Translations under genes and position numbers: made by a program
From: Luteolibacter sp.
Lineage (GTDB): Bacteria; Verrucomicrobiota; Verrucomicrobiia; Verrucomicrobiales; Akkermansiaceae
DNA length: 64,000 nt
Direction: 5' to 3'
NCBI GenBank assembly: GCA_030696085.1
Contig: JAUYNL010000053.1
Location: 1 to 64,000, forward strand
Shown here: positions 2,431 through 18,387 of the stretch, piece after piece
How the letters are laid out: each line of letters opens with the position of its first letter
How positions within the stretch are numbered: position 1 is the stretch's first letter
Notes under the pieces: generated by a model
The model's database searches: none
The model's input: the letters and a program-made list of their open reading frames with translations, nothing else
What the model was told of the DNA's origin: nothing

Positions 2431-5400
2431 TCATTTCAGCCGTTTGAGATTGGTATCCGCCAGCAGGGTGCGCATCTGGGTGATGGCGATTTCGTTGAGC
2501 TTGAGCAGGCGTTCGGGAGCCGGGAGTCCTTGGCGGATGAGCACGGAGTTGAGGCTTTCGAGGTTGGTGAGGACGACGAGTTGCTCCAAGGGGGCGTGGT
2601 CGCGGAGGTTGCCGTCCACGAAGGTTTGCAGGGCGGCCGTGGCGAGGTGGTGCCGGGAGGCGATGGTGGCGAGTTCGGCTGCGTCCTTTTTCGCCTTGAA
2701 GCGGGTGTAGCCGTCGCGGATGGCTGTTTCGCTGAGGCCTTCGCCGGCTTTGAGTTTGCTGATGTATTCGGCGATGTCCTCGCGCTCGTCGATGAACTTG
2801 GCATCGGACTGAATGAGGCCGATGAGTTGCTCGCGGGTCATCTTCTGCTTGCCCGGCTTCTGTTGGGAGTAGCGGGAGATGAGGCCCATGATGTAATCGT
2901 AATCAATGACGGCGGAGGCGAAGAGCACGAACTCGAAATCGATCTGGTCCACGGCGGAAGACTCGCCGAGCTGGGGCTCGGCGTTCCCGGCTTTCTGCTG
3001 CGCGCGGAGGCGCTGGGCGGTTTCCAGATAGACCCCGCGGAAGGCTTGATGATCCTCCGGCGGCAGCACTTCGGCAATCGCCTGTTTGTTTTCCTCGGTG
3101 AGGTCGGTGTATTGATCGAGCTGGGTCTTGAGCCGCTGGACCTCCTTGAAGTGATTGATGAAGGCGGCGCGGGCCTCGTCGCCCTTGAGATTCGGCACGG
3201 CTTCCGGGGCGCAATCGAGGCCCTGGGATTTCATGAAACCGTCCAGATTCTTCACCGCTTCCTCCAGTTTCTGGATGACGACCGGGGCCTTATCCACCAG
3301 CCAGATTTCACGGGCTTGATCGCTGGATTTTTCACCGGAGAAGAGGGCGATGGCGGTATCCACGGCGTCCTGCTGCTGGCGGAAATCGAGGATGTTGCCG
3401 TAGGGCTTGGAGCCGTTGAGCACGCGGTTGGTGCGGGAAAAAGCCTGGATCAAGCCGTGGTGCTTGAGCTTCTTGTCCACGTAGAGCGTGTTCAGGAATT
3501 TGGAATCGAAGCCGGTGAGCAACATGTCCACCACGATGGTGATATCGATCTTGTGGTGCGGGACTTTCGGGTCGGCCTTGCGCAAGTCCTCGTTGGGCCA
3601 CTGGTGGTCCTTGATGCGCTTCTGCACGTCCTGATAGTAGAGATCGAACTCGCTGAGCTTGTGGTTGGTGCCGTAGCGGGCGTTGTAGTCGGCGACGATG
3701 GCCTTGAGAGCGTCCTTTTTCTTCTCCGGCTCGACTTCGTTGTCCGCCCTTTCCTGTTCGAGATCCTCGGCGAGTTGCTCGATGTCCTTTTTGCTCTCCG
3801 GATTTTCCGCGAGTTGAGCGGGTGGGGAAAAGACGCAGGCGATGTTCAGCGGGTGGAAATCGGGATCGGCGGCCTGTTTCTCCGCCTGAATGGATTGAAA
3901 GAGCCCGAAGTATTCGATGGCGTCATTGATGGAGGACGTGGCGAGCAGGGCATTGAAGCGGCGTCCGCCGGTGGCGGCGTCGTGCTTGGAAAGGATGGCC
4001 TCGATGACGGCCTTCTTGGCGATGGCCTCGCCGGGCTTGGGAACGGTTTTGCCCTTCTCCTCCTTCGGCTTGAAGTAGTCCACATGAAAGCGGAGCACGT
4101 TCCCGTCCTCGATGGCGTGGGTGATGGTGTAGGCGTGGAGTTCCTTCTGGAAGAGATCCATGGTGGTGACCAGCGAGGCCACCTCGCCCTCGATTTTCTG
4201 CGAGGTGGCGTTTTGCTCGAAGATGGGGGTGCCGGTGAAACCGAAGAGCTGGGCCTTGGGGAAGAACTCCTTGATGGCCTTGTGATTCTCCCCGAACTGC
4301 GAGCGGTGGCACTCGTCGAAGATGAAGACGATGCGTTTGTCCCGGAGTGCCTCAAGCTGCTCCTTGTAGGTCTGGTAGCCGTGCTTTTTCCGCTGCTTGT
4401 TGCGCTTGCTGTTCTCATCCAGCGCGAGGCCGAGTTTCTGTATGGTGGTGACGATCACCTTGTCCGCGTAGTCATCGGAGAGAATCCGCCGGACGAGCGC
4501 GCCGGTGTTGGTGTCTTCCTCCACGCATCCTTCCTGGAAGCGGTTGAACTCCTCGCGCGTCTGGCGGTCGAGGTCCTTGCGGTCCACGACGAAGAGGCAT
4601 TTGTGGATTTCCTCATTGTCCTTCAGCAAGGTGGAGGCCTTGAAGGAAGTGAGCGTCTTGCCGCTGCCGGTGGTACTCCAGATGTAGCCGTTGCCGGAAT
4701 CGTCGTGAATGCACTGCACGATGTTTTTCACCTGATACACCTGATACGGGCGCATCATCAGGAGCTTCTGCTCGCTGGCGATGAGCACCATGTAGCGGCT
4801 GATCGTCCGGCCGAGCGTGCATTTCACGAGGAAGGTCGCGGCGAAGTCGTCGAGGTGGGTGATTTTCTTGTTCTTCTCGTCGGCGAACTGGTAGATGGGC
4901 AGGAAACGCTCGTCGGCGTTGAAGGCGAAGTGGCGGGCCTTGTTGTTGGCGAAGTAGTAGGTGTTGGTGCGGTTGCTGACGATGAAGAGCTGGAGGAAGC
5001 AGAGGAGGGTTTTTGAGTAGCCGTTGCCGGGATCGTTCTTGTAATCGACGATCTGCTCCATCGCCCGCCGCGGGTTGACGGTGAGGGTTTTCAGCTCGAT
5101 CTGGACGCAGGGGATGCCGTTGATGAGGATGATGACATCGTAACGGTGGTGGCTGTTGTCCGTGTTGATGCGGAGTTGCCGGATGACTTCAAACGTGTTT
5201 TTGCACCAGTCCTTGATATTGACGAGGGTGTAGTTCAGCGGCGTGCCGTCATCGCGGGTGAATGCGTTGATCTGGCGGAGGAGCTTGGCGGCGGCGAAGA
5301 CATCGGGCGTGATGATTTCGTCGAGCAGGCGGGCGAACTCGCCGTCGGTGAGGCGGACGCGGTTGAGGGTCTCGAATTTTTCGCGGAAGTTCTGTTCGAG

Positions 5401-5544
5401 CTTGGCGCGGTCGGTGATGTCCGGGCGGTATTCGTATTTGAGGCGCTGGAGGGTGCCGATGAAGCCGTATTCGATGGTGTCCTCCCGGACGACAGAACTT
5501 GGGAGATCCGGCGCGTGGTGGTAGGAAACCTTTGGGGTGGTCAT
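2431..5544 (-). CDS. hsdR: Type I restriction enzyme HsdR
   Basis: GYIWSTTGSGKTLTSFKA Walker A, FDECHRSQFGEN DEAD-like box, FGFTGTPIF; start taken at MTTPKVSYHH (5544). Confidence 0.92.
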   Translation of the reverse strand: MTTPKVSYHHAPDLPSSVVREDTIEYGFIGTLQRLKYEYRPDITDRAKLEQNFREKFETLNRVRLTDGEFARLLDEIITPDVFAAAKLLRQINAFTRDDGTPLNYTLVNIKDWCKNTFEVIRQLRINTDNSHHRYDVIILINGIPCVQIELKTLTVNPRRAMEQIVDYKNDPGNGYSKTLLCFLQLFIVSNRTNTYYFANNKARHFAFNADERFLPIYQFADEKNKKITHLDDFAATFLVKCTLGRTISRYMVLIASEQKLLMMRPYQVYQVKNIVQCIHDDSGNGYIWSTTGSGKTLTSFKASTLLKDNEEIHKCLFVVDRKDLDRQTREEFNRFQEGCVEEDTNTGALVRRILSDDYADKVIVTTIQKLGLALDENSKRNKQRKKHGYQTYKEQLEALRDKRIVFIFDECHRSQFGENHKAIKEFFPKAQLFGFTGTPIFEQNATSQKIEGEVASLVTTMDLFQKELHAYTITHAIEDGNVLRFHVDYFKPKEEKGKTVPKPGEAIAKKAVIEAILSKHDAATGGRRFNALLATSSINDAIEYFGLFQSIQAEKQAADPDFHPLNIACVFSPPAQLAENPESKKDIEQLAEDLEQERADNEVEPEKKKDALKAIVADYNARYGTNHKLSEFDLYYQDVQKRIKDHQWPNEDLRKADPKVPHHKIDITIVVDMLLTGFDSKFLNTLYVDKKLKHHGLIQAFSRTNRVLNGSKPYGNILDFRQQQDAVDTAIALFSGEKSSDQAREIWLVDKAPVVIQKLEEAVKNLDGFMKSQGLDCAPEAVPNLKGDEARAAFINHFKEVQRLKTQLDQYTDLTEENKQAIAEVLPPEDHQAFRGVYLETAQRLRAQQKAGNAEPQLGESSAVDQIDFEFVLFASAVIDYDYIMGLISRYSQQKPGKQKMTREQLIGLIQSDAKFIDEREDIAEYISKLKAGEGLSETAIRDGYTRFKAKKDAAELATIASRHHLATAALQTFVDGNLRDHAPLEQLVVLTNLESLNSVLIRQGLPAPERLLKLNEIAITQMRTLLADTNLKRLK

Positions 5545-16504: not shown

Positions 16505-16756
16505 TCAGTAGCGGCCGTACTGTTCCTGGTCGCGGGCGTTCCCGTGGAGAGCGCCGGCGGTACCCCCAACGGCAGCTCCCAAAGCGGCACCTTCGAGGGC
16601 GTGGCCCGATTGGTGACCGATGATTCCACCGGCTGCGGCACCGATCAGGCCGCCGGTGGCGGCACCACGCTGGGTGTTGGGCCCGGCTGGGGCGGCGCAA
16701 TTCGAGAGGGCAAGGGTGGCAATGATGCTGGTGATGATGGAAATTATGGTTTTCAT
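16505..16756 (-). CDS. Glycine-zipper lipoprotein
   Basis: LALSNCAAPAG lipobox; GGLIGAAAGGIIGHQSGHALEGAALGAAVGGTAGAL. Confidence 0.75.
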   Translation of the reverse strand: MKTIISIITSIIATLALSNCAAPAGPNTQRGAATGGLIGAAAGGIIGHQSGHALEGAALGAAVGGTAGALHGNARDQEQYGRY

Positions 16757-16888
16757 GGCTCGTTGACTCAACGGGTAGCCCAATCAGCGTCCGATTCAAG
16801 GGCTTTTCCCGGACGCCGCCTAAAAAATCCCGCTTCCAAAACAATCTGGCATGGCGGCTGCTTAAATGATCCTGTCGCGACATTACAG

Positions 16889-16950
16889 GCGGTCCGACTG
16901 AGATGCCCCGGGGTTAATGGGTTTTCCCTAAGGATGATCAGTCGGGCCGC
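16889..16950 (+). repeat. Hairpin element copy 1
   Basis: gcggtccgactga ... tcagtcgggccgc stem (one G.U pair on + strand), strongly similar to 17070-17133. Confidence 0.75.
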
Positions 16951-17021
16951 TTCCTTTGTAGGACGCACGTCTGTTTGCCGCACAATCCAGTGAAAAAATT
17001 ACGATTCAGGCAAGATTTTGC

Positions 17022-17050
17022 TTGTCAGGTGTGGCGATAGCCTGTAGACA
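17022..17050 (+). promoter_or_regulatory. Promoter-like TTGTCA-N17-TAGACA upstream of hairpin copy 2
   Basis: -35/-10-like hexamers with exact 17-nt spacing. Confidence 0.4.
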
Positions 17051-17054
17051 AGCC

Positions 17055-17144
17055 GCGTCGCAAGACAAGGCGGTCCGACTGAGATGCCTCCCAGGTTATT
17101 GGGTTTTCCTAGGGGGATGATCGGTCGGGCCGCTTCTTTTTTTT
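17055..17144 (+). ncRNA. Candidate small structured RNA (hairpin copy 2 ending in T8)
   Basis: gcggtccgactga...tcggtcgggccgc followed by ttcTTTTTTTT; promoter-like sequence upstream; no + strand ORF. Confidence 0.4.
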
Positions 17145-17175: not shown

Positions 17176-18387
17176 TCACTGCGTGCCCGGCTGGAACTCC
17201 GAATTCGTGAGATGGGCGCGGGCTTCTCCCACGAGAAACAAGGATCCGGCGACAAGGATGGGCGCGGCGTGGGATTTCGCGGCGGCGAAGGCGGTCTGAA
17301 AGGCAGCGAAGTTTTCATGCGGCGGCGCTTGCGCGGACAGGAAGGCGGCCAGTTCCTCCGGCGGCACGGCACGCGGCGTGGCCACCGGACAGAAGAAAAT
17401 CCGCTCCGCCAGCGGGGCGAGGATTTCAAGGATGCCGGCGATGTCCTTGGCCTCCACCGCGCTGAAAACGAGCGAGCATTTTTCCCCGGGAAATTCCGCG
17501 TTCCAAGTCTCGGCGAGCACTTGGGCGGACTGCGGGTTGTGTGCGCCATCGAGCACCACGCCGGGCAGGATTTCCTCGAATCGCCCGGGCCATGAGACCG
17601 TGGAGAGCCCGTGGCGCACACTGTCGGAATTGAGCGGCAGCCCGGCGTGGTGCAGCGCCAGCACGGCGAGCGCCGCATTCCACCGCTGGTGCGCGCCTGC
17701 CAGAGCGATCGGATAGCCTAACAATTCCTGCGCCGCGAACTCCAGCGGCGCGCGGATCTCATTCGCCTGCTTCTCCAGCACAAAGCGCGCGCCGGGCTCC
17801 TGCGGTGCGGAAATCACCGGTTTTCCGCGCACGAAAATCCCGGCCTTTTCCGCGGCGATTTTTTCCAGCGTTTCGCCGAGCCATTGCGTGTGGTCGAGCC
17901 CGATCGGGGTGATCACGCAGACATCGGCGGGGACGGCGGTGGTGGCATCGAGGCGACCGCCCATGCCGGTTTCCAGCACGATGAGTTCGCACTCACGTTC
18001 GCGGAACCAGCGCATTGCCAGTGCCAGCGAGATTTCAAAAAAAGTCGGATGCGTTTCCATCCGCTCGCAGATTTCACGCAGCGTGGTGAGCATCGTGGCG
18101 CAGTTTTGCTCTGGAATCTGCCGGCCGGAAACCTGGATGCGCTCCCGGAAGTCGATCAAATGTGGTGAGGTGAAAAGTCCGGTGCGCCGTCCGCAGGCAC
18201 GGGCAACGCTCTCGATCATCGCACAGGTGCTGCCCTTGCCATTGGTGCCCGCCACATGGATCACCTGGGTGCCATGGGCGGGAAACGCGAGGTTTTCGCG
18301 CAGCAGGCGGCGCGCCCCGTCCAGTCCGAGTTTGATCCCGAACATCTGGGTGGTGAAAAGCCAGTCGATCGCCTCGCGGTAGTGCAT
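17176..18387 (-). CDS. folC: Bifunctional folylpolyglutamate/dihydrofolate synthase
   Basis: HVAGTNGKGSTCAMIESVARACG; GMGGRLDATTAVPADVCVITPIGLDHTQWLG. Confidence 0.92.
   Translation of the reverse strand: MHYREAIDWLFTTQMFGIKLGLDGARRLLRENLAFPAHGTQVIHVAGTNGKGSTCAMIESVARACGRRTGLFTSPHLIDFRERIQVSGRQIPEQNCATMLTTLREICERMETHPTFFEISLALAMRWFRERECELIVLETGMGGRLDATTAVPADVCVITPIGLDHTQWLGETLEKIAAEKAGIFVRGKPVISAPQEPGARFVLEKQANEIRAPLEFAAQELLGYPIALAGAHQRWNAALAVLALHHAGLPLNSDSVRHGLSTVSWPGRFEEILPGVVLDGAHNPQSAQVLAETWNAEFPGEKCSLVFSAVEAKDIAGILEILAPLAERIFFCPVATPRAVPPEELAAFLSAQAPPHENFAAFQTAFAAAKSHAAPILVAGSLFLVGEARAHLTNSEFQPGTQ

Follow-up and report, generated by a model that had tools for sequence, protein, structure and literature searches.

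Predicted paralogous hairpin RNA genes of a multi-copy verrucomicrobial family combine an invariant apical loop with two types of predicted promoter

Two neighbouring hairpins on the + strand of the window (the whole 64,000-nucleotide stretch of DNA that was analysed, from contig C73 of a 3.77-Mb genome) belong to paralogous gene units of a family that keeps one strand and a covarying stem, falls into distinct promoter classes, and is spread through a genus in which Hfq was not detected. From the sequence we infer that these units are transcribed and that their RNAs act in trans. The best explanation, to which we assign a probability of about three in four, is that they encode sibling small regulatory RNAs with promoter-specific transcription and Hfq-independent action through the apex. 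The sigma-54 RNA polymerase would transcribe copy 1 and the housekeeping polymerase would transcribe copy 2, each copy giving a transcript of ~86 nt that begins with GUCGC and ends in a U-run after the long hairpin. The covarying stem would protect the RNA, terminate its transcription, and display the apex, whose invariant GGGUUUU loop is most likely the contact site. Acting in trans and without Hfq, this seed could lower the translation of a set of mRNAs by pairing with AAAACCC(AU) at or just before their start codons, and copies behind different promoters would bring different signals into one regulator.

Two RNA gene units in the window and their promoters

The preliminary description placed two hairpins at 16889-16950 and 17070-17133, and both are present on the + strand, with 86% identity to each other. 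The sequence that it quoted as shared is a blend of both copies, in which copy 1 has ...ccccggggttaatgggttttccctaaggatgatcagtcgggccgc and copy 2 has ...cctcccaggttattgggttttcctagggggatgatcggtcgggccgc. The + strand preference that it ascribed to the stems is borne out, as copy 1 folds with −39.6 kcal/mol (z −3.9) on the + strand versus −32.2 on the − strand and copy 2 with −45.4 kcal/mol (z −5.0) versus −30.5. The TTGTCA-N17-TAGACA upstream of copy 2, the T-rich end behind it, and the direction opposite to both flanking genes, which lie on the − strand, were likewise found as described, and the conserved units, with a predicted span of 86 to 88 nt, agree with the ~88 nt proposed. It had overlooked that copy 1 has a sigma-54-type promoter, how widely the family is spread, and that the apical loop is invariant. 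The features of the region are as follows.

16505-16756, − strand: glycine-zipper lipoprotein-like protein (Pfam PF13488), 83 aa from ATG, divergent from the RNA genes
16848-16861, + strand: sigma-54-type promoter of copy 1, GG (16848-16849), N10, GC (16860-16861), in the context ctGGcatggcggctGCtt
16874-16959, + strand: predicted RNA gene copy 1, type B, with start GTCGCGACATTACA, hairpin, and CTTCCTTTGT (covariance model R1)
16889-16950, + strand: hairpin of copy 1 (fold; outer-stem covariation across the family)
16912-16927, + strand: apex of copy 1, GGTTAATGGGTTTTCC, conserved in paralogues and across genera
17022-17050, + strand: sigma-70-type promoter of copy 2, TTGTCA (17022-17027), N17, TAGACA (17045-17050), from the sequence
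17057-17144, + strand: predicted RNA gene copy 2, type A, with start GTCGCAAGACAA, hairpin, and TTCTTTTTTTT (covariance model R1)
17057-17066, + strand: 5' mini-hairpin GUC-GCAA-GAC of copy 2 with a GNRA tetraloop (fold of family members)
17070-17133, + strand: hairpin of copy 2, which doubles as an intrinsic terminator with the U-run at 17134-17144 (sequence and fold)
17094-17109, + strand: apex of copy 2, GGTTATTGGGTTTTCC, conserved in paralogues and across genera
17134-17144, + strand: TTCTTTTTTTT, the 3' end of copy 2 (sequence)
17176-18387, − strand: folC-type Mur ligase, convergent with the RNA genes

Covariance model R1 scores the copy 1 gene at 89.6 bits on the + strand and 22.3 on the − strand, and the copy 2 gene at 107.5 and 24.5 bits, respectively. 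Comparison of homologues shows that the hairpins make up only part of the conserved gene. The conserved unit extends beyond them to a promoter, a GUCGC start, a leader of 8 to 14 nt, the 15-bp hairpin, which carries an inner loop and the apex GG-UUAWUGGGUUUU-CC, and a U-run; the whole conserved RNA unit measures ~86 nt. Type B copies have the 5' end GTCGCGACA followed by a short variable spacer, and the loop of the mini-hairpin appears as GCAA, GAAA, GUAA, or GCGA among type A homologues. Sequence conservation predicts for these units a promoter of their own, a discrete start, and an intrinsic terminator, the features expected of a stand-alone small RNA gene.

The promoter classes emerged from 78 family members aligned on the conserved GTCG start, for which 120 upstream bases were inspected. 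The sigma-54 signature GG-N10-GC lies exactly at −26 from GTCG in 26 of the 78 copies, and no other offset has it in more than 6. In the upstream bases the stricter TGGC-N9-GC is confined to −26 (23 copies) or to positions no more than one base away from it (3 copies). A TTG-type −35 box stands at the matching distance in about 39 of the 78, the TTGAC-N17 examples being the clearest. The other copies of the source genome divide in the same way, with a sigma-54-type promoter on contig C105 and a sigma-70-type promoter on C4, and this genome has rpoN. Two loci assigned to the sigma-54 class by rule (L114 and L119) nevertheless resemble a third class, as they have in common with L121 CGATA...GCGTAT-like boxes that perhaps belong to an alternative sigma factor. 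At L104, L105, and L125, an upstream inverted repeat, TTGGAATC...TTTCCAATCGCC, replaces the usual promoters.

Spread, covariation, and genomic neighbourhood of the family

A covariance model built from 31 sequences detected the element in 72 of the 73 genomes of the window's genus, including all 48 of good quality; across the order, 122 of the 387 genomes have it, and these belong to 17 of the 50 genera. Genomes of g2, many of which were screened within the family, gave no match although nearly all have rpoN, and the matches in f3 and f6 (L167-L170) are doubtful. Searches outside the order returned only ~45-nt terminator-like matches of 27 to 31 bits and a longer one of 28.5 bits, all regarded as noise. 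Genomes of the genus have 1 to 11 copies, with 11 checked copies in a one-contig genome (G134) and four in the source genome (two in the window, one each on C4 and C105); tabulated match counts contain some reverse-strand shadows. At the main loci both strands may match, but the RNA strand scores 50 to 112 bits versus 19 to 32 for the other, and the + strand scored above the reverse in every inspected copy. An Akkermansiaceae bacterium has on contig CANLKN010000018.1 both an RNA copy at 80.8 bits and a glycine-zipper gene that is 81% identical, on which ground we regard the window as verrucomicrobial chromosomal DNA.

Some copies stand in tandem. Genome G143 has four copies of the sigma-54 type RNA gene ~370 bp apart on C125 (L138, 3725-4944) and three that are ~300 to 350 bp apart on C146 (L139, 4043-4777), and these arrays are a recent amplification of the gene plus its flanks. 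Three further copies are in tandem on G186:C44. At L133 (G171:C10), Acido-Lenti-1 RNA (RF01687) lies between tandem copies of the hairpin RNA at 4476-4677 and 5469-5522, with one of its copies above the gathering score.

The stem is maintained by compensatory change, as expected of a stand-alone small RNA gene. In an alignment of 88 distinct sequences that was fitted to the model, pairing in the outer stem reaches 97.5%, and double changes occur in 11 of its 15 pairs; double-changed cells number 75, whereas shuffles give 15.8 and slid controls no more than 18. A second alignment of 31 sequences, made with MAFFT and not fitted to the structure, has double changes in 4 pairs, with 6 cells versus 0.4 expected. 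The stem below the apex varies while the apex is conserved. Inner hairpins proposed by RNAalifold were dropped; single-sequence folds show the outer stem and the apex. The proposal of a small RNA family in the preliminary description is thereby upheld, with numerous homologues found by the covariance model, covariation among them, and one strand kept.

In many relatives the genes follow the order dsbD, glycine-zipper gene, an optional type B copy, type A copy, and FAA-hydrolase gene, the last of which follows many type A copies at a distance of 60 to 110 nt; in the window its place is occupied by the folC-type gene. This order, conserved in many genomes, would suit cis elements (attenuators, riboswitches, or terminators) of a downstream gene such as that of the FAA hydrolase, a reading that is very unlikely given that the folC-type gene of the window is on the opposite strand, that the genes downstream of most other copies are unrelated or opposite, and that the U-run comes directly after the hairpin. 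The FAA-hydrolase gene of the source genome lies on contig C90, which has no copy of the RNA, and that of G134 is likewise away from RNA copies, so that cis regulation of this gene, suggested by the synteny, was rejected. The family's copies do not keep the fixed same-strand position upstream of a gene that marks a cis-regulatory leader or riboswitch.

Other copies adjoin genes for aspartyl-tRNA synthetase, a TonB receptor, aminotransferases, ABC permeases, a ClpC-type ATPase, phospholipase C, and others, which are unrelated and occur in both orientations. Between paralogues of the same genome, flank identity is at chance (~0.25) beyond about −60 and from ~15 nt past the element. Because the flanks are at chance beyond the promoter and the neighbours differ, the RNA genes are stand-alone, independent of the genes beside them, and neither cis elements nor REPs. 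In f2, the order's second family (L149, L155, and relatives), the RNA often adjoins DUF1015-like and POT-type peptide transporter genes, named by eye.

The preliminary description had itself named scattering as REP or transposon copies as an outcome that would speak against it. REP/MITE-like repeats or plain bidirectional terminators with no RNA function of their own would also be expected to have several copies in a genome and strong hairpins followed by U-runs, and would account for the weak matches to ~45-nt terminators elsewhere in the phylum. Such elements are mobile, promoterless, and indifferent to strand, whereas the family's copies have a promoter and a start at a fixed distance, strand asymmetry, an invariant apex, covariation, and flanks at chance identity. 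Just upstream of the window copies there is no end of a + strand gene for which a terminator would be required, and searches of viral contigs, plasmids, and phages gave no similar sequence, on which ground a phage or plasmid origin was also rejected. We therefore give the repeat or terminator reading hardly any weight.

The apical loop and its candidate partners

Across paralogues and genera, no part of the RNA is as conserved as the apex. In the window's family it reads GG-UU-(A/U, 0-3)-GGG-UUUU(U)-CC, and the order's second family has a stem-closed UU(A/U)(U/C)GGGGGUUU apex. The organism of an Hfq-dependent base-pairing small RNA has Hfq, and Hfq (PF17209) was found in 0 of the 73 genomes of the genus, with positive controls; RNA regulation in this genus must therefore rely on a different chaperone or do without one.

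Among paralogues the 5' half of the loop differs, and f2 genomes have GGGGG in the loop and not GGG, both of which would also fit a loop that binds protein. The main rival explanation, with an appreciable though minor probability, is that the loop titrates a protein. The RNAs would then be decoys whose invariant G/U loop captures an RNA-binding protein, many copies raising the dose, much as CsrB and RsmZ are decoys of CsrA. The conservation of the apex across paralogues and genera, the high copy number with its tandem amplification in G143 (four copies ~370 bp apart), and the failure to find Hfq are all compatible with decoys, but each RNA has a single loop and no repeated sites, the loop motif differs from the GGA of CsrA, and we know of no partner protein.

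If the siblings instead act by base pairing, as we prefer, the GGGUUUU seed is complementary to AAAACCC. The pattern AAAACCCAW has 81 sites in the source genome versus 29 for the reversed pattern. Among loci that were themselves selected by the motif, 14 of 28 usable AAAACCCATGA sites look like start codons, often those of exported proteins, compared with 19 of 85 (22%) for CCCATGA and 311 of 3,022 (10%) for ATGA. Such an enrichment would suit repression of translation initiation, but this evidence on targets is not conclusive, because starts in the genus commonly have CCC before ATG in any case, loop-complementary start sites number only ~5 per genome, and no orthology between genomes was seen among their genes. 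It is thus a plausible hypothesis, and one that we hold tentatively, that the loop acts on its mRNA targets by pairing with AAAACCCAU at their start codons. CCC precedes ~7% of 277 predicted ATG starts (L101-L140 with the window; L247-L276), and AAACCCATG precedes the starts of several exported proteins; either may possibly be a non-Shine-Dalgarno start context.

A broader proposal, which we consider improbable, is that this dosage-controlled family would serve Hfq-less hosts as a general switch for translation initiation at AAAACCCAUG-type starts, many of them those of secreted proteins and lipoproteins, with sigma-54, sigma-70, and further promoters feeding different signals into one loop.

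Comparison with known RNAs

The preliminary description did not recognise the element as a known RNA family, and Rfam 15 agrees, with no family at gathering score in the window and nothing relevant at the locus (E ≤ 10) or at 17 related loci (E ≤ 1). The nhaA-I RNA (RF03057) was rejected at 14.6 bits versus a cut-off of 37 (E = 3.1); the string GUCGGGCCGC common to both is a chance-level match, and nhaA-I is a cis-regulatory RNA. No verrucomicrobial small RNA of this kind was found in the open literature, and the family is apparently undescribed. A 2022 Rfam survey counted 8 distinct small RNA families in the PVC superphylum (PMC9029176). The present family, in nearly every genome of a large verrucomicrobial genus, spread through its order, and with up to 11 copies, would be one RNA fed by the promoters of different sigma factors. 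It offers a testable entry to RNA regulation and to the sigma-54 regulon in a genus where Hfq was not detected, and its covariance model can be used to annotate many genomes.

Three known systems resemble the family. The Qrr RNAs of Vibrio are sigma-54-dependent. They number 4 to 5 siblings with an identical core (PMC4211561), and the likeness lies in sibling RNAs with a common core and sigma-54 promoters. Qrr RNAs use Hfq and LuxO, whereas Hfq was not found in this genus; only a subset of the present copies, among them copy 1 of the window, has the sigma-54-type promoter; and sequence and fold are unrelated, with no Rfam family at gathering score to indicate homology.

GlmY is similar in its mixed sigma-54/sigma-70 control. 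For GlmY/GlmZ, in so far as PMC4211561 relates it from Reichenbach 2009, two promoters overlap at one gene, whereas here separate paralogues bear separate promoter types, and the RNA is unrelated. The Yfr2 family of cyanobacteria, with 2 to 9 copies, also consists of small hairpin RNAs of one lineage that are multi-copy, have unconserved loci, and carry a stem-loop motif (PMC6778093). It differs in sequence, structure, and phylum, the Yfr2 motif and the partners Yfr1 and Yfr10 were not seen here, and no Rfam match points to homology, so that only the multi-copy, conserved-loop plan is common. We claim membership in none of these families; what links the present RNAs to Yfr2 and Qrr is the plan of numerous siblings that have one loop in common, and what links them to GlmY is the mixed promoter control.
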